Shown here: piece after piece, positions 16,078 to 27,895 of the stretch
How the letters are laid out: each line of letters starts with the position of its first letter
How positions within the stretch are numbered: position 1 is the first letter of the stretch
Source: Chloroflexales bacterium
Lineage (GTDB): Bacteria; Chloroflexota; Chloroflexia; Chloroflexales; Chloroflexaceae
Assembly: GCA_022360155.1 (NCBI GenBank)
Contig: JAKSDJ010000182.1
Location: 1 to 37,458, forward strand
Length of the DNA stretch: 37,458 nucleotides
Direction of reading: 5' to 3'
Notes under the pieces: generated by a model
What the model was told of the DNA's origin: nothing
What the model saw: only the letters and a program-made list of their open reading frames with translations
Databases searched by the model: none
Made by a program: the position numbers and the translations under genes

Positions 16078-17133
16078 TCAGTCCAAGGGCACGCTGGCGT
16101 GCTGGGCGAACCCCGGCGTGTGGAACACGTCCCGCGTTTTCGTGACCAGGTACGCTTCGCAACCGCTAAAGCGCCGCATCATCGCCAGCCCATCGGCGAC
16201 ACCCAGCGCTAGGACCGCGGTCGACAGCCCGTCGGCCAACGCCGTGTTCGGCGCGGTGACCGTCACGCTGGCCAACTCCGGCGGTGAATACCCCGTGCGC
16301 GGATCGAGGATATGATGTTGGCTCCGGTCGTCGGTATACGCCTGTTGATAGTCGCCCGACGTGGAGATCGCCCCATCGGTGATGCCGAGTGCGGTGAGCA
16401 CGCCCGCGCCAGAGGCCGCGCGGGGGTCCGCAATCCCCACCTGCCAGGGTTGGCCCCGCGCCCGCGTCCCCGCCGCCATCAGGTCGCCCCCCGCATCGAC
16501 CAGCACGTTCGGGAAGCCATGCGCTTTGAGCGTCGCCACCCCGATATCGACGATATATCCCTTCGCAATACTGTTCAGGGTCAGCCCCATGCCCGCTTGG
16601 GCGAACCGCAGCTCATTGGCCGTAACGATCAGGTTGCGGTAGTTCACCCGCGTGCGCGCGCGGGTGATCGCGGCTGCTGTGGGCAGGCAGCGCTGGGTCC
16701 GCCAGGTGTTGTCATACAGGTCACTCAGCGGCTTGATGGTCGGATCATACGCACCTCCCGACAGCGCGCTGATGGTCAGCGCGTGCTGGACGACGGCAGA
16801 TAGAGCGGGGGAAGGCGCTCTCACGCGGCCCTCCCGATTCAAGATGGACACGTGGCTATCAACCTTGAAGCAACTCATGATTGCTTCGAGTTCAGCCATC
16901 CGATCAAACAGTGCCGTGGCCGCTGCGCGGGCACGATGGGCCTCCGCGCCGACCAGGGTCAGACTGACCAGCGTGCCCATCAGCAGCCGCGTTTCCTGGA
17001 TGGGGCGCGCCTGGCGTTGAGCGATTAGCTCGCCGCCCAGCACCGCAGCGACACCGACCCCGGCGCCGCCGGCCAGAATACGAAGCGCCTGGCGACGGGT
17101 CAGCGCCTTCCTTGTTGTTTTGACGGCATTCAT
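16078..17133 (-). CDS. apbE: FAD:protein FMN transferase (ApbE)
   Basis: ApbE attaches FMN covalently from FAD to a Thr/Ser of FMN-binding domains on the outer side of the membrane. The 351-residue protein has a Tat-like signal (LTRRQALRIL at 11-20, then a Gly/Ala/Val-rich core). Family motifs follow in order: MGT (52-54), LNSIAKGYIVD (186-196), VDAGGD (212-217), STSGDY (257-262), HILDPRTGY (274-282), and the Mg site D301-x3-T305 (DGLST). All catalytic positions look intact. GAGGAT lies about 7 nt before the ATG. The gene is last in the dehalogenase locus, 21 bp after a 39-codon membrane-peptide gene, and its expected client is the FMN-binding domain of RdhC. That domain lacks the normal acceptor Thr, so the client may differ. 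Confidence 0.92.
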   Translation of the reverse strand: MNAVKTTRKALTRRQALRILAGGAGVGVAAVLGGELIAQRQARPIQETRLLMGTLVSLTLVGAEAHRARAAATALFDRMAELEAIMSCFKVDSHVSILNREGRVRAPSPALSAVVQHALTISALSGGAYDPTIKPLSDLYDNTWRTQRCLPTAAAITRARTRVNYRNLIVTANELRFAQAGMGLTLNSIAKGYIVDIGVATLKAHGFPNVLVDAGGDLMAAGTRARGQPWQVGIADPRAASGAGVLTALGITDGAISTSGDYQQAYTDDRSQHHILDPRTGYSPPELASVTVTAPNTALADGLSTAVLALGVADGLAMMRRFSGCEAYLVTKTRDVFHTPGFAQHASVPLD

Positions 17134-17154: not shown

Positions 17155-17274
17155 TTACAGCGCAGTGATCACATTCCCGGCCAATTCGACCAGAATGAGC
17201 ACGACGCAGACGGTGACATAGATCAGCAGCACTAGGGCGCCGCTGCCGGTTTTTTTGTGTGGTGTGTTTGCCAT
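17155..17274 (-). CDS. Small one-helix membrane protein, 39 residues
   Basis: This unrecognised small open frame lies between rdhC and apbE, overlapping the end of rdhC by 43 bp in another frame. The N-terminus is short, polar and basic (MANTPHKKTGSG), followed by one hydrophobic helix (ALVLLIYVTVCVVLILV) and a short tail ending in NVITAL. By the positive-inside rule the N-terminus would be cytoplasmic. A GGGGGAT stretch about 6-7 nt upstream can serve as a ribosome site, and apbE starts 21 bp after its stop. The tight packing and ideal transmembrane pattern favour a real gene. It could be an accessory subunit of the RdhC electron-transfer module. No homologue is known to me. Confidence 0.6.
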   Translation of the reverse strand: MANTPHKKTGSGALVLLIYVTVCVVLILVELAGNVITAL

Positions 17275-18470
17275 AGTTCAATCCCCCAGGTGCGAAACAT
17301 CCGCATAAAATCCATAATTGGGTCGATGGGGCACAGGTAATTACACCAGGGCCGCTTCCAATACAAGGCGCCGATCAGGATCATGCCCAACAGGGCAAAC
17401 TGGACCGGCGAGCCAACGAAGGTGAACAATGTCCCAAAAATCTCGAAACTGGTCACCCCCGGATTGCGCAGCAGCAGCGCCAGCACAATCGCCAGCCAGG
17501 CCAGTCCGCGTTGCAGCCACTTCAGGCCCCAGCGATACCGGCGTGGGGTGCGCACCTTGGCCCCGCCAATGACCGCCAGGCATTCCTGCGCGGCCCCAAA
17601 CGGGCAGAACCACTGGCAGTACGGGTTCTTGTTCGTGATGGCGAAGACCGCCACCGCACCGCCCACCAGGATGTACCAATAGAGGTTGGTGTGCCAGTCG
17701 GGCCAGAAGCCGAGTAGCAGTTGGTTGACGGCGGTGATGGTCAACGAGCTGTTATACATGAAGCCAATCGTGACCAAACCGAGAAGCAGCGTCGCCCAGC
17801 GCAGGTGGGAAGTATACCGGAACCTGCGCTGATGCGCGATGTACCCCAGGGCGAACAATGCGACGAGGACCAGTTCTTTCGGCCCGATCATGATGGTAGG
17901 CTGCGCCGGTGGCGGAATCGGATAGCCAAGCTGCGTCTCGGCGATGTCCAACACGCTCTGGCGCACCGAGTCGACGATGGCCCGTGAACTTAGGGGGGCG
18001 CCGGTCACCGCATCCACATCGGCGCCAAGGGTGATTGGGTCAGCGTATGAGCGACCGGTGAGCGATTCGAGCAAGTCGCTGCTCACGACCCGGGCGATGA
18101 AGGATGGGGTTTCGCGCTGCGCGACAAGGCTCGTGTGCAGCACCGTCCCGTCGGGAGCCACGGCCACGGCGACGGTCAGCGGGCCGCCATAGCCGTCGGC
18201 GGCGCCGAAGCCAACGTAACCCAGCCGCGCTGCGTTGGGCGACTCCGAGTCGTAGGCGGCGTAGATGGTGTCGGTCAGGCGCTCGAATGCAGCAGCCTGG
18301 GGCATCACCACACGTAGGTGTGGTTCACGGTCGGCTTCACCAAGCATACCGCCCACAATCCAGGCGATAACAATGGTGATGATCGCAACGACGCCCAGGC
18401 GGCGCTCCCATCGCCGGTTCGTGATTATATGCTGGTTCCCTCCGAACGGAGGTGCGGTTGCAGTACTCAT
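17232..18470 (-). CDS. rdhC: RdhC-like membrane flavoprotein (FMN-binding, NosR/NirI family)
   Basis: This polytopic membrane protein (412 residues) is of the RdhC/NosR type, thought to move electrons from quinol to an extracytoplasmic reductase or to help its maturation. Layout: an N-terminal helix (about 25-43), an external FMN-binding domain (about 50-180), then about five helices (near 200-212, 223-240, 264-279, 322-335, 352-371). Two cytoplasmic CX3CP motifs are present: C285-C289 (YCQWFCPFGAAQEC) and C376-C380 (WCNYLCPID). This is the standard RdhC arrangement. One key residue is unusual. The flavinylation motif normally reads D-x-x-S/T-G-A-T, and here it is D153-A-V-T-G-A-P159, with proline (codon CCC) where FMN is attached. 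S161 and S162 follow directly. The stop is 17232-17234, and it sits between rdhA and apbE. NosR is excluded by context, since no nos genes are present. Confidence 0.85.
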   Translation of the reverse strand: MSTATAPPFGGNQHIITNRRWERRLGVVAIITIVIAWIVGGMLGEADREPHLRVVMPQAAAFERLTDTIYAAYDSESPNAARLGYVGFGAADGYGGPLTVAVAVAPDGTVLHTSLVAQRETPSFIARVVSSDLLESLTGRSYADPITLGADVDAVTGAPLSSRAIVDSVRQSVLDIAETQLGYPIPPPAQPTIMIGPKELVLVALFALGYIAHQRRFRYTSHLRWATLLLGLVTIGFMYNSSLTITAVNQLLLGFWPDWHTNLYWYILVGGAVAVFAITNKNPYCQWFCPFGAAQECLAVIGGAKVRTPRRYRWGLKWLQRGLAWLAIVLALLLRNPGVTSFEIFGTLFTFVGSPVQFALLGMILIGALYWKRPWCNYLCPIDPIMDFMRMFRTWGIELWQTHHTKKPAAAP

Positions 18471-18737: not shown

Positions 18738-20468
18738 CTAGGCCTTGATATGAATGTAGGTGTCTTTGTCCCAGAAATCACGCGGATCGTCGCCCGATTC
18801 CGATCCGTACCCAGCAGCATCGTCCAGTTTGAGCAGCAATTGGTTCAGTGGCCCTGACTGCACCCCGATCAGGATGCGAGTCGCCTCATGCAGCCAGCCT
18901 TCCGGCTTGTTGAAAGGGCAAACACGAATGCAGTTGTAGCAACTGCCGCCGACTTCCGCCCAATACCCGAAGCACTTGTCGCCATCAACCGGCCAGCTAT
19001 ACAGGCCCGGAATGCCTGTGACAGACGCTTCATAGGTGCGCCCTCCATTCGAGATGGCGCTACCGGGGCATTGTTCTGCACACTTACCGCAGACTGCGCA
19101 GAATTCGGTCACGCCAAAAGAGATCGGACGGTCGGTGAGCAGCGGCAGGTCGGTCAAGACTTTCGCCAGCCGCACCCGCGGCCCATACTTCGTTGTGATC
19201 AAGAGGCCGTGGCGACCAAGTTCGCCAAGCCCGGCATCAACGGCCATGGGTATACTGAGCGAGTGATCGTTGCCCATTGGGATGGCGTTATACCCCAGGC
19301 GGTGAATAAAGTTTGCGAGGCAAGCGCTGGTAAACGCCATGCGCGAGTAGCCGTTCATTGCCGCCGCTTCGCCAAGCTGGCTGACCACGTGGATATTACC
19401 CCCGGTGTTAATACTTCCCTCGTCCATCTCAAAGGCCATCACGACCACGCGGTTCATCGAGCGCGGAATAATCTTGGTGCCATCATCCTCAATGACCGGC
19501 GCATCAATCTCATCGGAAAAGCGGATGTCTCTCAAGCGGCCCTGTATTATCGCGCTGAAATCCATCGTGCCTATGTCCATCGCACCGTCCATCATCGCGG
19601 GCCTATCCGGCATCATGGAGGGGTCCATGTTTTCCATTAGGGCGGACATCATGGCCGGGTCCATGTTTTCCATCATGCGCGGCAGCATCTGTTGCAGCAT
19701 AGCGGCAGGCATGTTCGTTAACATGTCCGGGTTTATACCGTCAGGCAACACTGCGGGATCGACCTGCTCCATCACACCCATGAGCATCTCTTTGAGCGCT
19801 TCTGGTTCCATATCACCCAGCATTTCGGGCAGCATCTCCTGCACCTGTGCAGGATCCATCTCTTGCGGAGGCGTCTTCCCCTCTGGAGGCGAGGAGCCTC
19901 CAAACATAGCAGCAGGGCTTATATCTCCATAGTCTTTATAGAACCAACGTTCGTCGAGGGGCGCAATCCCAACCAGCGAGGCGCCATACAGCTTGGCGGA
20001 TCGCTTGACGATTTTGCTCACATCTTCAACCGTGTACCCATGCTCCTCGGGGATCCAGCGACCCTCGGGCATTCGTGAAGGGTTCGTAGCCTGTCTATCC
20101 CAACTGTACATGTCTTGATCAAACATGAACGTTGCTGCGCCTGCAGCATACGCATAGGCCAGCCAGTCATCGCCAACCTCGCCGGACTCCAGATTCTTGC
20201 GCGTATTTTCATTGCGCGTCAAGAGCTTATCCGGGTTACGGATAAAGCTGGTATCCCCCCCGGATTTTCGGTCATACACGGCGTCATCGACAGCATAGGG
20301 CGGGTCATCCGGATCATGGGAGCGAATATAGAAGCCGCCTGCGTCATCCGCGGCTACGCCTCCTCCCTGCTTTACCACTTCGAATATGCTGGCAGCGCCA
20401 AACACACTTGCTGTGATGCCGCCAATCTTGAGAAAGTCGCGTCGGTTGATACCGTTTTTCTCTGCCAT
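18738..20468 (-). CDS. rdhA: Reductive dehalogenase catalytic subunit with Met-rich insertion
   Basis: This is a corrinoid/iron-sulfur enzyme of the RdhA family, which removes halogen from organohalides as terminal electron acceptors. The 576-residue protein begins with a Tat signal (INRRDFLKIGGITASVFGAA, 7-26), so it is exported folded. YGASLVGIAPLDERWFY (161-177) starts the core. NGYSRMAFTSACLANFIHRL (372-391), GYNAIPMGNDHSLSIPMAVD (392-411) and AGLGELGRHGLL (412-423) are classic RdhA blocks. The Fe-S motifs are CAVCGKCAEQCP (457-468) and C499...C510YNCIRVCP, with all eight cysteines present. Between the two halves is an insertion of about 105 residues (199-303) with 24 Met, in units such as MENMDPAMM and MENMDPSMM. 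This is far beyond the usual linker. GGAGG lies 8 nt before the ATG at 20468; an upstream in-frame TTG overlaps that site. Electrons would come via RdhC. The substrate is unknown. Confidence 0.9.
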   Translation of the reverse strand: MAEKNGINRRDFLKIGGITASVFGAASIFEVVKQGGGVAADDAGGFYIRSHDPDDPPYAVDDAVYDRKSGGDTSFIRNPDKLLTRNENTRKNLESGEVGDDWLAYAYAAGAATFMFDQDMYSWDRQATNPSRMPEGRWIPEEHGYTVEDVSKIVKRSAKLYGASLVGIAPLDERWFYKDYGDISPAAMFGGSSPPEGKTPPQEMDPAQVQEMLPEMLGDMEPEALKEMLMGVMEQVDPAVLPDGINPDMLTNMPAAMLQQMLPRMMENMDPAMMSALMENMDPSMMPDRPAMMDGAMDIGTMDFSAIIQGRLRDIRFSDEIDAPVIEDDGTKIIPRSMNRVVVMAFEMDEGSINTGGNIHVVSQLGEAAAMNGYSRMAFTSACLANFIHRLGYNAIPMGNDHSLSIPMAVDAGLGELGRHGLLITTKYGPRVRLAKVLTDLPLLTDRPISFGVTEFCAVCGKCAEQCPGSAISNGGRTYEASVTGIPGLYSWPVDGDKCFGYWAEVGGSCYNCIRVCPFNKPEGWLHEATRILIGVQSGPLNQLLLKLDDAAGYGSESGDDPRDFWDKDTYIHIKA

Positions 20469-20503: not shown

Positions 20504-20818
20504 TTACTTGGGCGCCGGGCTGGGTTGGCCTGCAATTTCCGGCGCTCCTGCAAGCTTAGCGAACACAAATCGTCTGAGTAAAACTGCCCAGACAACGCCG
20601 AAGAAGGCAATCAGCAAGCCGATGAGTAAGGCGGCTTGCGGTGCGCCTTCAGCCAGAAAGCCATAGATGACCTCCGCAACGAAGACAAAATACAAAACGT
20701 TGAGTATCGTCAGAGTCCACTGCCACCAGTTCAGGTTCAAACCTTCCTGTTTGGCATAGTCGAGTAGAAACAGCACCGCCCACATGGCGAATGCCCCGAT
20801 GAAAAGGTGGATAGTCAT
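20504..20818 (-). CDS. rdhB: Reductive dehalogenase membrane anchor RdhB
   Basis: RdhB is a small integral membrane protein thought to hold RdhA on the outer face of the cytoplasmic membrane. This one has 104 residues, the usual size, with three hydrophobic helices: LFIGAFAMWAVLFLLDY, WTLTILNVLYFVFVAEVIYG and ALLIGLLIAFFGVVWAVLLR. The loop FLAEGAPQAA between helices 2 and 3 matches the short Glu/Gly/Pro loop typical of RdhB. AAAGGAG sits about 6 nt before the ATG. It precedes rdhA by 35 bp, the B-then-A order also known from some Desulfitobacterium loci (cprBA), whereas many Dehalococcoidia use A-then-B. No adjacent MarR, CRP or two-component regulator of the kinds usual for rdh operons is present. 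Confidence 0.82.
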   Translation of the reverse strand: MTIHLFIGAFAMWAVLFLLDYAKQEGLNLNWWQWTLTILNVLYFVFVAEVIYGFLAEGAPQAALLIGLLIAFFGVVWAVLLRRFVFAKLAGAPEIAGQPSPAPK

Positions 20819-21207: not shown

Positions 21208-22536
21208 TCATTCGTGGCGCAGGGCCTCGATAGGATTGAGTTGTGCGGCGCGTTGGGCCGGATAGATCCCGAAGAACAAGCCAACCGCCAGCGAAAAGCC
21301 CAGCGCAAGCGCCACCGCCCCGAATGAGATCGAAGCTTCTAGCAGGCCGCTCAGGGTAACGGCCAAGGAAATGACACCGCCGAGCACTACCCCGATCAGC
21401 CCGCCAGCCACACTCAGCACCAGCGCTTCGACCACAAACTGCAACGAGATATCGCCCCCACGCGCCCCAACCGCTTTGCGCAGCCCGATCTCGCGGGTTC
21501 GCTCGGTAACGCTCACCAGCATGATGTTCATAATGCCGATCCCGCCGACGACCAACGAGATCCCGGCGACAGCGGCGAGAAAGGTGGTCAGCAAGCCAGT
21601 CACGATCGAGAGCGTATCCAGGATCTCCGCCTGGTTGAGCACGTTAAAATCATCCTCGCTGCCATCCGCGGCGAGGCGGTGCCGATCACGCAGCAGCGTC
21701 GCGATCCGCGCCTCGATCTCAGAGAGATCATCGCTATTGTAGGCCGACACCGCAATCGACGAAACCAGGTAGCTATTGCCGTCCGGCGTGCGTGTGCCGA
21801 AAAGCCGCTGTTGGGCCAGAGTGATCGGGACGAATGCCTGGTCGTCAACCGAACCAAAAGCGCCGCCGCCTTGTGCTTCCAACACACCCGTCACCCGTAG
21901 CGGCTGCCCTTCGACGCGCACCGTCTGTCCTAGCGCCTCGCCGCTGCCAAAGAGCTCGGTGGCCACATTCGCGCCCAAGACGATGACCGACTCAGCATTC
22001 TGTACCTGCTCCTCGTCAATAAAGGTTCCACTGCGCAAGGGCGGCTCGTTGATCGTGTCGTAGGCGGCTGTGACCCCGGCAACAGTAGCACTAGCATCGG
22101 CTGCGGCGGCCACCAGCCGTGTACTATTGTTCAACTGTGGCGAAACTGCAATGACCGGCAGGTTGAGCGTGGCGATGGCTTCGGCATCGTCCATCGTCAA
22201 GGTCTGCGCCTGACCGCCGCTCTGCCCCGGCCCTTGGTTGCTGGATGAACCAGGGCTGATGGTGAGAACATTGGTGCCAATTGCCTCGAACTCGCCGGTA
22301 ATTGCGGAGGTAGCGCCATCGCCCAGCGCCATCAGCGAGATGACCGCGCCGACGCCGATGATAACGCCGAGCATCGTTAGCAGCGAGCGCACTTTGTTCG
22401 CCAGCAGGCTGTCGAGCGCGATGCGGATTATCTCCCCGATACCCACAGTGCTGTTGCCCTGCTGCTCCAAGGGTTCCAACAGTTGGTCTGAACCAGGGTT
22501 GGGTCGAATCCGGCTTTCGGATAATGATATGGTCAT
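21208..22536 (-). CDS. MacB-like ABC transporter permease (FtsX family)
   Basis: This is the permease of a MacAB-type efflux or lipoprotein-release system, 442 residues. A first helix (LTMLGVIIGVGAVISLMAL) follows a conserved RIALDSLLANKVRSLL segment. A large extracytoplasmic MacB_PCD domain comes next, then three C-terminal FtsX helices (including LAAVAGISLVVGGIGIMNIM, and SFGAVALALGFSLAVGLFFG before YPAQRAAQLNPIEALRHE). The motif TERTREIGLRKAVGA between them is the coupling loop. The ATG at 22536 (MTISLSES) has AGGAAGAG just upstream; a 17-codon longer frame is unlikely. It is the third gene of an operon with the ATPase and adaptor on the same strand. It probably exports a peptide, antibiotic or lipid. 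Confidence 0.9.
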   Translation of the reverse strand: MTISLSESRIRPNPGSDQLLEPLEQQGNSTVGIGEIIRIALDSLLANKVRSLLTMLGVIIGVGAVISLMALGDGATSAITGEFEAIGTNVLTISPGSSSNQGPGQSGGQAQTLTMDDAEAIATLNLPVIAVSPQLNNSTRLVAAAADASATVAGVTAAYDTINEPPLRSGTFIDEEQVQNAESVIVLGANVATELFGSGEALGQTVRVEGQPLRVTGVLEAQGGGAFGSVDDQAFVPITLAQQRLFGTRTPDGNSYLVSSIAVSAYNSDDLSEIEARIATLLRDRHRLAADGSEDDFNVLNQAEILDTLSIVTGLLTTFLAAVAGISLVVGGIGIMNIMLVSVTERTREIGLRKAVGARGGDISLQFVVEALVLSVAGGLIGVVLGGVISLAVTLSGLLEASISFGAVALALGFSLAVGLFFGIYPAQRAAQLNPIEALRHE

Positions 22537-22644
22537 AGGACTCTTCCTCTGTGGTTTGCTTGGGGCAATGCGGGATGCGCTGTGCATTCATTCCTGCATT
22601 GTCCGCCAACATCATTTCAGCTTTCCAAAGCATTAGATTGCATA

Positions 22645-23340
22645 TCAAGCAACTTGTCTCATTTCATCAGCAGCAAGCAGACCATCGCGCATCGTTAGGA
22701 CGCGGCTGGTGTATTCGGCAATGTCTGGTTCGTGTGTGACCAGGACGATGGTCAGGCCTTGTTGGCGGTTCAGGGTTTGGAGGATATTCATAATCTCCAG
22801 ACTGGTCTTCGTGTCGAGCGCGCCGGTTGGTTCGTCAGCAAGCAATACCGCCGGGCTGCCAACCAGAGCGCGAGCAATCGCGACTCGCTGCTGCTGTCCG
22901 CCACTCAACTCTTGGGGACGGTGTTCCATGCGCTCTTTCATGCCCACTATCTGCAGGGCGATCTGCGCTCGTTTCCGGCGTACGTCTGCGGGTACGCCGC
23001 GGTAGAGCAAGGGCATTTCGACATTGCGCAGGGCCGACTGGCGCGGCAGGAGGTTGTACTGCTGAAAAACGAACCCCAGCTTCTGGGCGCGCACCAGCGA
23101 CAACTCATCACCTTCCATTTGGGCCACCGACACGCCGTCCAGGTTATACGCGCCGCTGGAAGGCGTATCGAGGCAGCCAATCAGGTTCATCAGCGTGCTT
23201 TTGCCGCTGCCGCTTGGACCCATAATCGCCACGAACTCGCCACGCTGAATATTGAAGCTGACACCTTTGAGCGCTGGCACCGCCACATCACCCATCCGGT
23301 AGATCTTTTGCAGGTTTTCGACGCTAATCATTGCTTGCAT
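22645..23340 (-). CDS. MacB/LolD-type ABC transporter ATP-binding protein
   Basis: This ATPase powers the adjacent FtsX-family permease. It has Walker A MGPSGSGKST, Q-loop FVFQQYNLLPRQSALRNVEMPL, signature ELSGGQQQRVAIARAL, Walker B VLLADEPTGALD and switch His in LVTHEPD. The sequence closely follows the LolD/MacB subfamily from ISVENLQKIY onward. There are three possible starts: ATG 23340 (GGAG 7 nt upstream, 231 residues, the family length), ATG 23409 (GAGG upstream), and ATG 23439, which overlaps the adaptor stop as ATGA. I prefer 23340 by length, but the overlapping start would give tight coupling. The permease begins 108 bp downstream. Confidence 0.9.
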   Translation of the reverse strand: MQAMISVENLQKIYRMGDVAVPALKGVSFNIQRGEFVAIMGPSGSGKSTLMNLIGCLDTPSSGAYNLDGVSVAQMEGDELSLVRAQKLGFVFQQYNLLPRQSALRNVEMPLLYRGVPADVRRKRAQIALQIVGMKERMEHRPQELSGGQQQRVAIARALVGSPAVLLADEPTGALDTKTSLEIMNILQTLNRQQGLTIVLVTHEPDIAEYTSRVLTMRDGLLAADEMRQVA

Positions 23341-23435
23341 TGCATGACTCCGTAGCATAGTGACAGGCTCCAGTTGTGCGCCGTAACCCGTCGAGGCTGA
23401 ACTGTTCATATGACGGTTCCTCTGTATAACTTTCA

Positions 23436-25214
23436 TCATTGGGTTACCCCCCCAAAGAAGCCGCCACCCTGCGCGCCCTGTGTATTCGTTCTTGGTAGTG
23501 CAACAATCTCATCACCCTCGTTGAGGCCGCTCACAATCTCGGTCTGCGCGTCGTCGCTCAAGCCGGTGACAACCTCGACTTCGCGGGTGTTGCCCTCCGC
23601 ATCTGTGATCTGGACCACCTGGCCTGCGCCCTTGGGCAGCAATGCCGAATTCGGCACGAGCAACACATCATCTTCTTGCGCGGTAATGATATCGATGTTC
23701 GCCGTCATACCGACTTTCACGCGCTGATCATCGTCGGGAAAGCTCACCTGCACGCCGTAGGTCACCACGCCATTTACATTCTCTGCAGCCGGCGCAATAT
23801 AGGTCACTGTACCCGTTGTCTCCCAGTTTTCAAGAGCGTCGATCAGCAGGGTGACCGGCTGGCCAAGTTCGACCTGGGCGACATCGTTCTCATTCAAACT
23901 CAGGTCGACGTGCAGCGGGTCACGGTCGATCAGCGAGATAGCCGGCGTACCAGTAGTCACAACACTCCCCGGAACAATATTCACCGCAGAGACAACCCCG
24001 CCGAAGGGGGCGGTAAGGGTCGCGTAGGAAAGCTGGAGTTGGGCCTGCGCGAGCGACTGCTCGGCCTGGGCGACGCTAGCTTGCTGAATTTCCAAATCTG
24101 TTGCGGTCGCCGGCGCCGTGAGCTTCTCCAAATTGGCCTGCTGCTGGTTGACGGTCGCCTGGGCCGCAGCGATATCGACGGCAGTGCCGCCCTGGCGCAG
24201 CTTCTGCAGATCGGCCTGGCGCTGTTCAACGGTTGCCTGAGCCTGGATCAACTCGGCCTCGGTCGCACCCTGTTGCACCGAGCGCAATTGCTCTTCGGCG
24301 TCGCGTACCTGAGACTCGGCGGTGGCAATGCCGCTCACTTCGGCCTGTTGCGCCTGTTCATAGTTCAATTGCGCCTGGGCCAGACTCGCTTCGGCATTCT
24401 CGATGGCGCGCAGCGCTGCCTCCTCGCGGTTGATATCCTCCAGGGATAGCTCGCGGCCAAACTTGCTGAGCTGGTCCTCGAGTTCGCGGTTATCCCAGTA
24501 GATCTGGCTGTATTCGGCTTGTGCATCACGCAGGTTATTGGCGGATTGCTCCATCTGCGACTGCGCGGTTGTTTTAGCGATCGCGAGGTTGCTGCGCTGC
24601 GATTCGAGGTTCGCCTGCGCCTGATCGAGTTTGGCCTGCGCAGCAGCGAGTTGGTCGGGTTTCGAACCGGCGCGCAGGTCGTCGAGTGTGGCCTGGGCCG
24701 AGCGTAACGCTGCTTCGGCGCTTGCGATATCAGCGGCGGTCACATTGCCGCTTTGGGTGCGTTGAAGTTGCGCTTCGGCGTTTGATAGACTCGCCTGCGC
24801 AGCGGCAATATCTTGTTCGGTTGCATTCCCTTCCTGGGTCTGGACCAGACGCGCCTGCGCGCTTTCCAGGTTGGCGGCGGCATTCGCAACTTGTATTTCC
24901 AGATCGCGGGTGTCGAGGCGGGCCAGCGCCTGCCCTGCTTCGACCACGTCGCCTTCTTCGACCAGGACTTCTACAACCGCGCCGCTAGTCTGGAACGGCA
25001 GATCGAGCGATTGTGCAGCGGTAATCGAACCGCTCCCGCTTACGCGGGCGACGACAGAGCCATGCGTGACGGTAACGGTGCTTGCCTGGGTTGTTGCCGA
25101 ACTCGACAGCGCGTTAATCACCAACGCAGCAATAATTGCGAAGGCAATAAAGACGACACCGCCGACCTTCCAGCGGCTCGTACCCCGACGTTGCTCTAAC
25201 GTTGTTGTTGCCAT
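23436..25214 (-). CDS. MacA/HlyD-type membrane fusion adaptor with long coiled coil
   Basis: This is the periplasmic-type adaptor of the tripartite exporter, 592 residues and longer than classical MacA (about 370). One N-terminal helix (residues 16-36, VGGVVFIAFAIIAALVINAL) precedes a biotinyl-lipoyl half (VEVLVEEGDVVEAGQALARL). A long Ala/Gln-rich coiled coil follows (about 110-375), with repeated units such as AAQASLSNAEAQLQRTQSGN and IASAEAALRSAQATLDDL. The second lipoyl half (ATLTAPFGGVVSAVNIVPG) and the beta-barrel and proximal domains come last. GGAG lies 9 nt before the ATG at 25214. The longer frame up to 25394 is created by a MITE-like repeat and should not be annotated. In a monoderm-like Chloroflexota envelope, the extended hairpin may reach across the wall rather than to an outer-membrane channel. 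Confidence 0.9.
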   Translation of the reverse strand: MATTTLEQRRGTSRWKVGGVVFIAFAIIAALVINALSSSATTQASTVTVTHGSVVARVSGSGSITAAQSLDLPFQTSGAVVEVLVEEGDVVEAGQALARLDTRDLEIQVANAAANLESAQARLVQTQEGNATEQDIAAAQASLSNAEAQLQRTQSGNVTAADIASAEAALRSAQATLDDLRAGSKPDQLAAAQAKLDQAQANLESQRSNLAIAKTTAQSQMEQSANNLRDAQAEYSQIYWDNRELEDQLSKFGRELSLEDINREEAALRAIENAEASLAQAQLNYEQAQQAEVSGIATAESQVRDAEEQLRSVQQGATEAELIQAQATVEQRQADLQKLRQGGTAVDIAAAQATVNQQQANLEKLTAPATATDLEIQQASVAQAEQSLAQAQLQLSYATLTAPFGGVVSAVNIVPGSVVTTGTPAISLIDRDPLHVDLSLNENDVAQVELGQPVTLLIDALENWETTGTVTYIAPAAENVNGVVTYGVQVSFPDDDQRVKVGMTANIDIITAQEDDVLLVPNSALLPKGAGQVVQITDAEGNTREVEVVTGLSDDAQTEIVSGLNEGDEIVALPRTNTQGAQGGGFFGGVTQ

Positions 25215-25740
25215 TGCAAGAAACTCCTTTTTCTGGTTTTGTGTCTTGTCAATAACAGGACTTACGCAGTCACCGATCGGCAGGAAGGTTTTGGAAGGCT
25301 GCAAGCCCTCCAAGAATCCTTTTTCTCGCCGCTGCCGCGGCGACAGCGGCGAGAAGGGTTTTCGGGGAAGCTTCGCCTCCCCGACCGCTACCACCGCGTA
25401 AGTCTTGTCAATAAAATATGGTAGGAATTGCGCGGTAACAGGCTCAATACCTGCGAATGATCCGTCAGGCGGTTCAGCCGTTTGACTATGCCTGCGCCCT
25501 ATGCTGCCGCAGATACAGCGGCTTTTCGCTCGTCACGTATCACAAATGGTCTTGCAGTGTGCTAGAATGCGACTGCGCAACTCCTGTCAATCAGTCTAGC
25601 GATTCAGCGGCGCGATGTCGTCAGGCGAGCTAATGATTCGGGGGCATCAATTCCGGTGATCCGGTGATCACCCAAATGAGTGATCGCCCATCGCCGGCCA
25701 AGGCGATCCTTCTCTACATAGGGGGTGGTACAATAACGTC
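25215..25740. other. Divergent intergenic region with MITE-like insertion
   Basis: This 526-bp gap lies between the adaptor gene (minus) and the histidine kinase gene (plus). It contains the element at 25243-25414 and, next to the kinase, a TACAAT at 25729-25734 only 6 nt before the ATG. I see nothing else of note. Confidence 0.5.
25243..25414. mobile_element. MITE-like element with GACTTACGC ends and direct repeats
   Basis: Inverted 9-bp ends GACTTACGC (25259-25267) and GCGTAAGTC (25396-25404) enclose a structured core. The core includes a perfect 12-bp stem, TTCTCGCCGCTG / CAGCGGCGAGAA (25323-25355). The direct repeat GTCTTGTCAATAA flanks both sides (25243-25255 and 25402-25414), as a target duplication would. 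No transposase is encoded. Confidence 0.65.
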
Positions 25741-27111
25741 ATGATGAATTGGAAGCCTTCCCAACGCCAACCTGCAACACACGACGAACGGCAGCGCCGG
25801 AGCCGACTGGTGCTCTATGTCCTGCTGTTATTGGTTGCACCATTCGTGCTCGTAATCGTCATTAGGCTGTTGATGCAGCTCGTGGTTGGCCCCAAATTGC
25901 AACCGCCACACCCGCCGCCTAATGATCGGCCCGCTTTTTTTGCCACCTCTCTGGTAATAACGATCATCTTCATTAGTGCATTAGTCCTGCTGATTCGGCT
26001 GCGTCGACCAACCCTATCGGCGCTGTTGTTGATCGGGATTTGGTCTCTGCTAACGACCGTTACCACACTCCGGTTTGGCATTATGACGTTTTTGCCAGCC
26101 ATGTTCATCTTGCCTATCTGCGCTGCCGGTCTGTTGATCGATCGGTTGGCCAGTGTAACCTTGGCGCTGTTGGCCACCGCATTTGTAGGAGCGATGGCTT
26201 GGACGGAGTTGTTTTCGCCAACTGCGGGTCGCATATTGTCGAGCTTTGAAGGAACCCCTGCTTTTGCCTTTGGATTCTGGGTTATGATCTTCTGGACAGT
26301 GGCTATCCTAACGGCCCTGCTGTCCGGCGGATTGCAGCGCGCGTTGCAACAGAGCCGTGTTCATGCCGAGGAATTGGCCCAACTGAGCGCCCAACTCGAA
26401 GAACGGGTCGCTGCACAAACGGCCGAGCTGCTGTCTCAGGCCCAAGAAAAGGCGACCCTAGAAGAACGTACGCGACTGGCTCGCGAGATTCACGATACGC
26501 TGGCCCAAGGACTAACCGGCGTGGTCGTGCAACTCGGGGCGGCGCAGCGCGCACTGACAGCCCTCTCCAGCCATCAAGACAACTATCCTGCGGAGGAACT
26601 ACGCACCAATCTTGGCCTAGCCCAGCAAATGGCCCGCGAGTCGCTCGCCGAGGCGCGGCGCTCGGTCTGGAACCTGCGCACCCCAGCCCTGGAGCGTGGC
26701 GACTTGGGCGATGCCCTGCGCGGCTTAACAACCCATCCGCTGCGCCCCGAAACAAGCGTCAGTTTCACCCAATCTGGCGCACCCTGGCCGCTCTCGTCGG
26801 CAACCGAGGCGGCGCTGCTGCGAGTCTGTCAGGAGGCGCTGGCCAACGTAAGTAAACACGCCCAGGCCACCCATGTCGAGGTCGAATTGGCGTATACTGC
26901 CGATGCTGTGAGCTTATCTGTTGATGACAATGGGGTAGGCTTTTCTGACCCGACATTCGATCAGTTGACTTCTGGCAATGGTCCCTGGGGTAGCTTCGGA
27001 GTGCTGGGCATGCGTGAACGAGTTGTCGCACTGGGCGGCGCGCTGCATTTAAGTAACGCCGGCGGGGCGAAGGTGTTGGCGACTATTCCGCGGAATGACA
27101 CCGTGATGTAG
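25741..27111 (+). CDS. Sensor histidine kinase, NarL-system (HisKA_3) type
   Basis: This is a membrane sensor kinase of 456 residues. About six N-terminal helices (residues 20-200) form a membrane sensor with no large external domain. A short coiled linker (ELAQLSAQLEERVAAQTAEL) leads to the HisKA_3 dimerisation/H box RTRLAREIHDTLAQGLTGVV, whose His is the phosphorylation site. The ATPase domain follows: N box LLRVCQEALANVSKHA, G box VDDNGVGFSD, and GSFGVLGMRERVVALGGAL. The partner is the response regulator 151 bp downstream. TACAAT lies 6 nt before the first ATG, so the transcript may be leaderless; the second codon is also ATG. The signal is unknown. Confidence 0.92.
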   Translation: MMNWKPSQRQPATHDERQRRSRLVLYVLLLLVAPFVLVIVIRLLMQLVVGPKLQPPHPPPNDRPAFFATSLVITIIFISALVLLIRLRRPTLSALLLIGIWSLLTTVTTLRFGIMTFLPAMFILPICAAGLLIDRLASVTLALLATAFVGAMAWTELFSPTAGRILSSFEGTPAFAFGFWVMIFWTVAILTALLSGGLQRALQQSRVHAEELAQLSAQLEERVAAQTAELLSQAQEKATLEERTRLAREIHDTLAQGLTGVVVQLGAAQRALTALSSHQDNYPAEELRTNLGLAQQMARESLAEARRSVWNLRTPALERGDLGDALRGLTTHPLRPETSVSFTQSGAPWPLSSATEAALLRVCQEALANVSKHAQATHVEVELAYTADAVSLSVDDNGVGFSDPTFDQLTSGNGPWGSFGVLGMRERVVALGGALHLSNAGGAKVLATIPRNDTVM

Positions 27112-27262
27112 CAATTTGGATCGGTTGTAGACAGGGTCATGCCATAGCTCTGCAAGAGAACACCGAGTTGACATAGCTCTGAGTTTCAGGTTCGTAGGTA
27201 TGCAGGTGCGCGGCTGGGAGCTTACACCTAACACACTAGCAATTAATTAAGGATGGAGAATC

Positions 27263-27895
27263 GTGATTCGGGTGCTTGTTGTTGATGATCATCCCGTTGT
27301 GCGCCATGGCTTGGTCGCAATGTTACATTGGGAACAGGATATCGAGATTGTCGGTGAGGCCGCTGACGGCTTGGAGGCGGTGCGGCTGATTACCGAGCAG
27401 CAACCCGATGTTGTGCTGCTCGATCTGCGTTTGCCCCACCTGAGCGGCATCGAGGTCATGAACCAGACCCGCGCCCAGGCGCCGCACGTTCGTTTCCTGG
27501 TACTGACCACGTACGATACCGACGAATACATTGGCCCGGCGCTGGCTGCCGGCGCGCGGGGCTACTTGCTCAAAGATGCTCTGCCTGACGAACTGGCCCG
27601 CGCGGTGCAGGCGCTGATGCAGGGCGGCGCGGCCCTCGAACCGAGCGTCGCAGCACGGGTGCTTGGTCGGATGCACGAAAACGAGAGTGTCAATGACCTG
27701 TCGCAGCGTGAACTCGAGGTGCTACGGCTGTTGGTTGCAGGAGCAAGCAACAAAGGTATTGCCGCCCAACTCAACCTCTCTGAAAACACGGTCAAATCGC
27801 ACCTCAGCCATATCTTTAGCAAGCTCGACGTACAGAGCCGGGCCGAAGCGGTTGCGGTAGCGCTTCAGCGCGGTCTGGTGCGCTTAGCTCAATAG
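27263..27895 (+). CDS. NarL/FixJ-family response regulator
   Basis: This 210-residue regulator has an N-terminal receiver (acidic pair D8-D9, phospho-acceptor D54 in VLLDLRLP, T82/T83 and K104 in GYLLKDAL). The C-terminal LuxR-type helix-turn-helix reads LSQRELEVLRLLVAGASNKG then IAAQLNLSENTVKSHLSHIF. All phosphorylation residues are intact. The GTG at 27263 has GGATGGAG about 4 nt upstream. It is almost certainly phosphorylated by the histidine kinase encoded just before it. Targets are unknown. The pair is convergent with the downstream kinase gene. Confidence 0.93.
   Translation: MIRVLVVDDHPVVRHGLVAMLHWEQDIEIVGEAADGLEAVRLITEQQPDVVLLDLRLPHLSGIEVMNQTRAQAPHVRFLVLTTYDTDEYIGPALAAGARGYLLKDALPDELARAVQALMQGGAALEPSVAARVLGRMHENESVNDLSQRELEVLRLLVAGASNKGIAAQLNLSENTVKSHLSHIFSKLDVQSRAEAVAVALQRGLVRLAQ

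Follow-up and report, generated by a model that had tools for sequence, protein, structure and literature searches.

A methionine-rich insertion with a four-residue hydrophobic period in a reductive dehalogenase of a Chloroflexales bacterium

Active-site access in the best-studied reductive dehalogenase is limited by a narrow channel entrance (PMC5500849). What, then, does a reductive dehalogenase do with a methionine-rich domain of about 120 residues in place of a short linker? The question is raised by a gene in a 37,458-nucleotide stretch of DNA from a Chloroflexales bacterium (hereafter the window). If a natural variant has rebuilt the entrance, the role of its lip becomes directly testable, and such a variant would be a pointer to enzymes for larger organohalides.

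The gene, rdhA (18738-20468, minus strand), encodes a catalytic subunit of 576 amino acids (P0001) in a stop-free frame with a Tat signal (motif RRDFLK). P0001 scores 218.6 bits against the TIGR02486 reductive dehalogenase model (curated cut-off 160.35), placing it within the RdhA family, and 19.9 bits against Pfam PF13486, below the cut-off of 24.3. Its nearest relatives in the PDB are both PceA (8q4h and 4uqu; phmmer E about 1e-58), from Desulfitobacterium hafniense TCE1 and Sulfurospirillum multivorans, respectively. With these it has in common the RdhA core, the tyrosine/arginine pair, two [4Fe-4S] motifs and a membrane anchor gene. The catalytic tyrosine Y374 (Y246 in S. multivorans PceA, SmPceA), the arginine R433 (R305) and the eight cluster cysteines (C457/460/463/467 and C499/510/513/517) are invariant in an alignment of P0001 with seven other RdhAs. 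Because these residues are retained, the enzyme should be active. The residues reported for the menaquinone pocket of D. hafniense PceA are K489, H495, R499, D515 and Y520 (PMC10624902), and the phmmer alignment pairs all five with identical residues in P0001 (K521, H527, R531, D549 and Y554). P0001 combines a Tat signal with an adjoining RdhB anchor gene, as respiratory membrane-bound RdhAs do, and judging from its sequence is probably a membrane-associated, menaquinol-linked respiratory enzyme.

Residues 199-303 (19874-19560) contain 24 methionines, against 12 in the other 471 residues (36 in total). The binomial probability of this excess is about 2e-16, which excludes chance on composition; the same residues include no cysteine, histidine, tryptophan or tyrosine. 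A preliminary description of the window had reported this block, its methionine count and its flanks (LVGIAPLDERW and IPRSMNRVVVM) exactly as we find them, together with an intact frame and intact RdhA motifs. Its edges delimit the methionine-rich part, whereas the insertion itself is slightly wider, spanning residues 183-312 approximately (19533-19922, minus strand). Between the flanking anchors, the linker measures 156 amino acids in P0001, 142 in a paralogue from the same genome (L035) and 133 in L076, a cousin that belongs to a different class of the phylum, versus 18-38 in the nine relatives in which both anchors could be measured. The insertion thus does replace a short linker. Because paralogue and cousin both carry it, misassembly and frame artefacts are ruled out, in line with the earlier judgment that the segment is not assembly junk. 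An open reading frame antisense to it (19405-19932) is a shadow of the methionine codons, with nothing that marks it as a gene.

A four-residue register and a predicted helical fold

Within the insertion, residues 204-288 (19605-19859, minus strand) form a core, delimited by autocorrelation, structure prediction and dN/dS, in which the hydrophobic residues of both paralogues show a period of 4.0 along a stretch of about 85 residues. Hydrophobic autocorrelation reaches 0.41-0.57 at lags 4 to 20 (comparable in 0 of 5000 shuffles), one of the four phases never holds a hydrophobic residue, and the prolines of the core keep register with the same period. Methionines are likewise spaced, with 10 MxxxM pairs in 87 residues (as many in 13 of 20,000 shuffles). 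Two adjacent hydrophobic residues in every four create a face that covers roughly half the circumference of an α-helix over three turns.

Modeled alone from its single sequence, the segment is predicted by AlphaFold2 to form five to six short helices (206-218, 222-235, 247-252, 255-268 and 271-280), with a mean pLDDT of 72.1 and values of 72-85 in mid-domain. Each of these predicted helices begins at a DP, EP, NP or MP, so that most have a [DEN]-P cap. Modeling of the full length, also from the single sequence, gave a poor result (mean pLDDT 37), whose best part is these same helices. The single-sequence model thus suggests a helical fold, and the DP and NP that space the units of the preliminary description reappear as predicted helix caps, to which the period of four is now added. 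Foldseek found no significant match of the segment model to solved structures (best E 1.9), nor did a viral fold library match it.

The segment had also been likened to STI1/Hop. The C-terminal domains of Sgt2 and SGTA, the STI1/DP domains and the M domain of SRP54 are methionine-rich and flexible, with five or six amphipathic helices and a hydrophobic groove, and the Sgt2 and SRP domains hold hydrophobic helices (PMC8010706). In composition and helix number the insertion resembles them; those proteins, however, are cochaperones or SRP, and the likeness stops at analogy. We found no Pfam hit to STI1/DP and an hhalign probability of 0.7% (against three STI1 rows, one of them entered by hand), so that, together with the Foldseek result, homology to STI1/DP is not supported. 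The STI1 sequences that we tested also lack the period of 4.0 residues. A second likeness is to CueO, an exported multicopper oxidase of Escherichia coli, whose methionine-rich, partly helical insert caps the substrate entrance and alters specificity when deleted (PMC6497955). CueO differs in that its fold is unrelated and its segment of about 45 residues binds Cu(I), which we regard as improbable for P0001 (below). CueO and Sgt2 are precedents, and neither is homologous to the insertion.

Relatives that share the insertion

The host genome carries a second operon (TetR, rdhB, rdhA, rdhC and apbE; contig C527) whose RdhA, L035, is 72% identical to P0001 and retains the insertion. Comparison of the two RdhAs gives a dN/dS of 0.26 for the N-terminal part, 0.24 for the methionine core and 0.16 for the C-terminal part, and the core value indicates that the segment is under purifying selection. 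Identity within the segment is 88% for proline, 70% for Asp/Glu/Asn, 70% for methionine and 49% for Leu/Ile/Val, with hydrophobic class kept at about 90%; the difference between methionine and Leu/Ile/Val is not significant (P 0.07). Methionine occupies 16 columns in both paralogues and exchanges with Leu, Ile or Val at 10. A Pfam CAAP1 match to the L035 segment (21 bits, below the cut-off of 25) we take as an artefact of composition. At the end of contig C816 lies an RdhA-like fragment of 47% identity with two TAG stops (L036:3659-4057), possibly a decayed third copy.

RdhAs were sought in 158 genomes of the class, in 400 across the phylum and in two further classes with about 390 genomes each. 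Many were found, and among the best-scoring loci of each search, which are those compared in full (further carriers may exist), only L076 has the insertion besides the pair. RdhAs lacking it contain at most 2-7 methionines in any 60-residue stretch, versus 16-17 in the pair. L076 (genome G678) is the closest RdhA outside the host genome among the loci compared, with 39% identity over its full length (383 bits). Its insertion lies at the same site and is homologous to that of P0001 (pairwise BLASTP E 4e-6), with 8 methionines versus 24. It is hydrophobic at 24 of the 32 hydrophobic columns (hypergeometric P 3e-11, a generous value as the alignment was optimised) and has methionine at 5 of the 24 methionine positions of P0001, the others being mainly Leu, Ile, Val or Phe. 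One MxxxM pair is left, and the four-residue period is absent. Thus, of the Met-rich segment whose conservation the preliminary description proposed to check, L035 keeps the segment and L076 the domain with few of its methionines.

P0001, L035 and L076 group together in a tree built without the insertion (SH-aLRT 98). The G678 operon has the same content as the C527 operon (TetR, rdhB, rdhC and apbE beside rdhA), with rdhB downstream of rdhA rather than upstream as in the window. Because L076 has the homologous domain and this place in the tree and only 8 methionines, the insertion is, by sequence comparison, the mark of an RdhA subclade, and methionine richness is limited to one lineage within it. 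The subclade is known from three sequences.

Beyond these loci, plasmid-borne RdhAs matched in the core only, with the insertion in none; two scans of viral contigs returned no relative, and a scan of genome contigs returned distant short matches only. A weak match in genome G457 (E 6e-4) lies within a protein that reads as an isoleucyl-tRNA synthetase, and we take it as chance. No family with such an insertion was found in Pfam, NCBIfam or the PDB, and a full-text literature search, largely of open-access articles, found no methionine-rich insertion in a reductive dehalogenase. The earlier view that no such RdhA had been described stands to this extent; the insertion is not unique, however, as L035 and L076 share it.

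Proposed position at the substrate channel and candidate roles

To place the insertion on a solved structure, we took SmPceA numbering from a Sulfurospirillum RdhA that is encoded on a plasmid and differs little from that enzyme. SmPceA residues 176-190, IPADVPYEQSLHKEI, are the stretch replaced by the insertion, in an alignment that is anchored on both sides and not exact within the loop (IRFSDEIDAP in P0001 is aligned with IVFKDVPLP). What is a short loop in SmPceA is, in P0001, a predicted helical, methionine-rich domain. SmPceA Leu186 and Glu189, together with Thr39, Phe44 and Phe57, line a letter-box entry of 5.5 x 3 Å that sits in a hydrophobic surface groove (PMC5500849). Because the replaced stretch includes Leu186 and Glu189, our working model has the domain hinged at both ends on the channel mouth, over which it would lie by comparison with SmPceA.

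Our preferred explanation, with a probability of about 0.45, is therefore that the insertion forms a hydrophobic, helical structure that caps the substrate entrance or serves as its vestibule. In this arrangement, the lip of the entrance would give way to a helical mini-domain about 100 residues long, with a methionine/leucine face presented by five to six short amphipathic helices that are mostly [DEN]-P capped. The domain would most likely cover or widen the channel mouth, as a flexible hydrophobic vestibule that could capture an organohalide that is bulky or dissolves poorly and hand it on to the cobamide; methionine richness may make this surface soft and adaptable in this lineage. The role in capture or gating is inferred. 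The cap or vestibule is in keeping with the site, with the amphipathic helices and with the tolerated exchange of methionine for leucine, and the domain could equally face a partner protein as a substrate. More tentatively, and to our minds doubtfully, the three enzymes may represent an RdhA subfamily of their own, spread over at least two classes of the phylum, in which a helical domain at the mouth of the active site captures clients. An anoxygenic phototroph would then have elaborated this domain into a strict four-residue methionine ladder that captures natural products or pollutants that are halogenated, bulky and hydrophobic. Substrate delivery of this kind is undescribed for any reductive dehalogenase.

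Partner proteins enter in two other explanations. As an assembly module acting in cis, the methionine-rich helical hand would do the work of a dedicated RdhT/PceT-type chaperone: until the enzyme is exported and docks to RdhB, it would shield hydrophobic segments, either the core of the Tat signal or the quinone-site helices at the C terminus. In favour of such a module, the insertion resembles Sgt2-C and the SRP M domain in its composition and in the number of its helices (PMC8010706), and no trigger-factor-like gene was recognised within the window; yet alignment puts the insertion at the catalytic face, away from the C-terminal membrane contact, and neither an STI1 profile match nor a significant fold match was obtained, which leaves this explanation unlikely. 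Less probable still is an oligomer interface, in which the extra helices would enlarge the contact between RdhA subunits or connect the enzyme to another membrane complex. That contact is helical and the largest interface in D. hafniense PceA2B2 (PMC10624902), and added helical domains frequently make contacts.

Explanations that turn on methionine itself have to account for the cousin. A site for Cu(I) or another soft metal, with MxxxM ladders as ligands after the manner of CueO, had been raised before and draws on the excess of MxxxM pairs and the 16 methionine columns common to the paralogues. The insertion lacks cysteine and histidine, however, methionine gives way to Leu, Ile or Val at 10 columns between the paralogues, and the idea is weakened because L076 keeps the hydrophobic positions and few methionines; we regard it as improbable. 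If the host is a phototroph that lives near oxygen, its oxygen-sensitive corrinoid/Fe-S enzyme might be protected by a sacrificial methionine surface, an idea that agrees with the reaction-centre genes of the host (below) and with the restriction of the methionine excess to this lineage. It leaves unexplained both the helical domain shared with L076 and the strict four-residue register, and is very improbable. We give as little credence to neutral expansion of a 12-base repeat in a permissive loop. DNA self-match in the region is raised at lags 12, 24, 36 and 48 (0.40-0.46 versus 0.24-0.30), but no tandem array was found, and the constraint on the core (in dN/dS and in its prolines and Asp/Glu/Asn) and the homologous domain in another class already make such an origin unlikely.

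Operon and host

In the window, rdhA is part of a set of four genes, all on the minus strand. Upstream lies the RdhB-like membrane anchor (20504-20818; 104 amino acids with about three hydrophobic stretches), so assigned from its position. It adjoins rdhA in all three operons, with 75% identity to the C527 anchor and 53% to that of G678, and has no match in Pfam or NCBIfam; it appears as an RdhB type not yet modelled. Downstream are a membrane protein with FMN_bind and Fer4_5 domains (17232-18470) and an ApbE-type flavin transferase (16078-17133; PF02424, E 7e-74). The former has the two CX3CP motifs of RdhC (CQWFCP and CNYLCP). The RdhC consensus for FMN attachment is [S/T]G[A/S]TX[S/T] (PMC5928378), from which the window protein departs with TGAPLS, a change of threonine to proline (residue 159; 17992-18009, minus strand), and we therefore call it RdhC-like only. 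The motif is intact in the paralogue (SGATMS) and in G678 (SGATVT), and the window copy may, on this motif, not be flavinylated despite the adjoining ApbE.

RdhA needs a corrinoid, and CobS (PF02654) had no match in the host genome, a bin of 8.9 Mb in 1048 contigs that is 96.7% complete with 6.0% contamination. Because this genome has two adjacent Photo_RC genes for type-II reaction-centre subunits (G000:C1027:6003-7657), the host is probably an anoxygenic phototroph, and one with two RdhA operons. A probably quinol-linked RdhA operon is thus present in two copies in a genome with a phototrophic reaction centre. For a flanking gene of the window, the best match (58% identity) comes from a genome of the same order; this agrees with correct binning and is not decisive against mis-binning.

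TetR-type regulators stand beside the C527 operon (L035:463-1098) and the G678 operon (L107:8553-9149), with none directly beside that of the window. Directly upstream of the window operon, genes for a MacB-like permease, an ABC ATPase and an HlyD-type protein (21208-25394, minus strand) form a possible efflux neighbour, and a histidine kinase and LuxR-type response regulator pair follows at 25741-27895.
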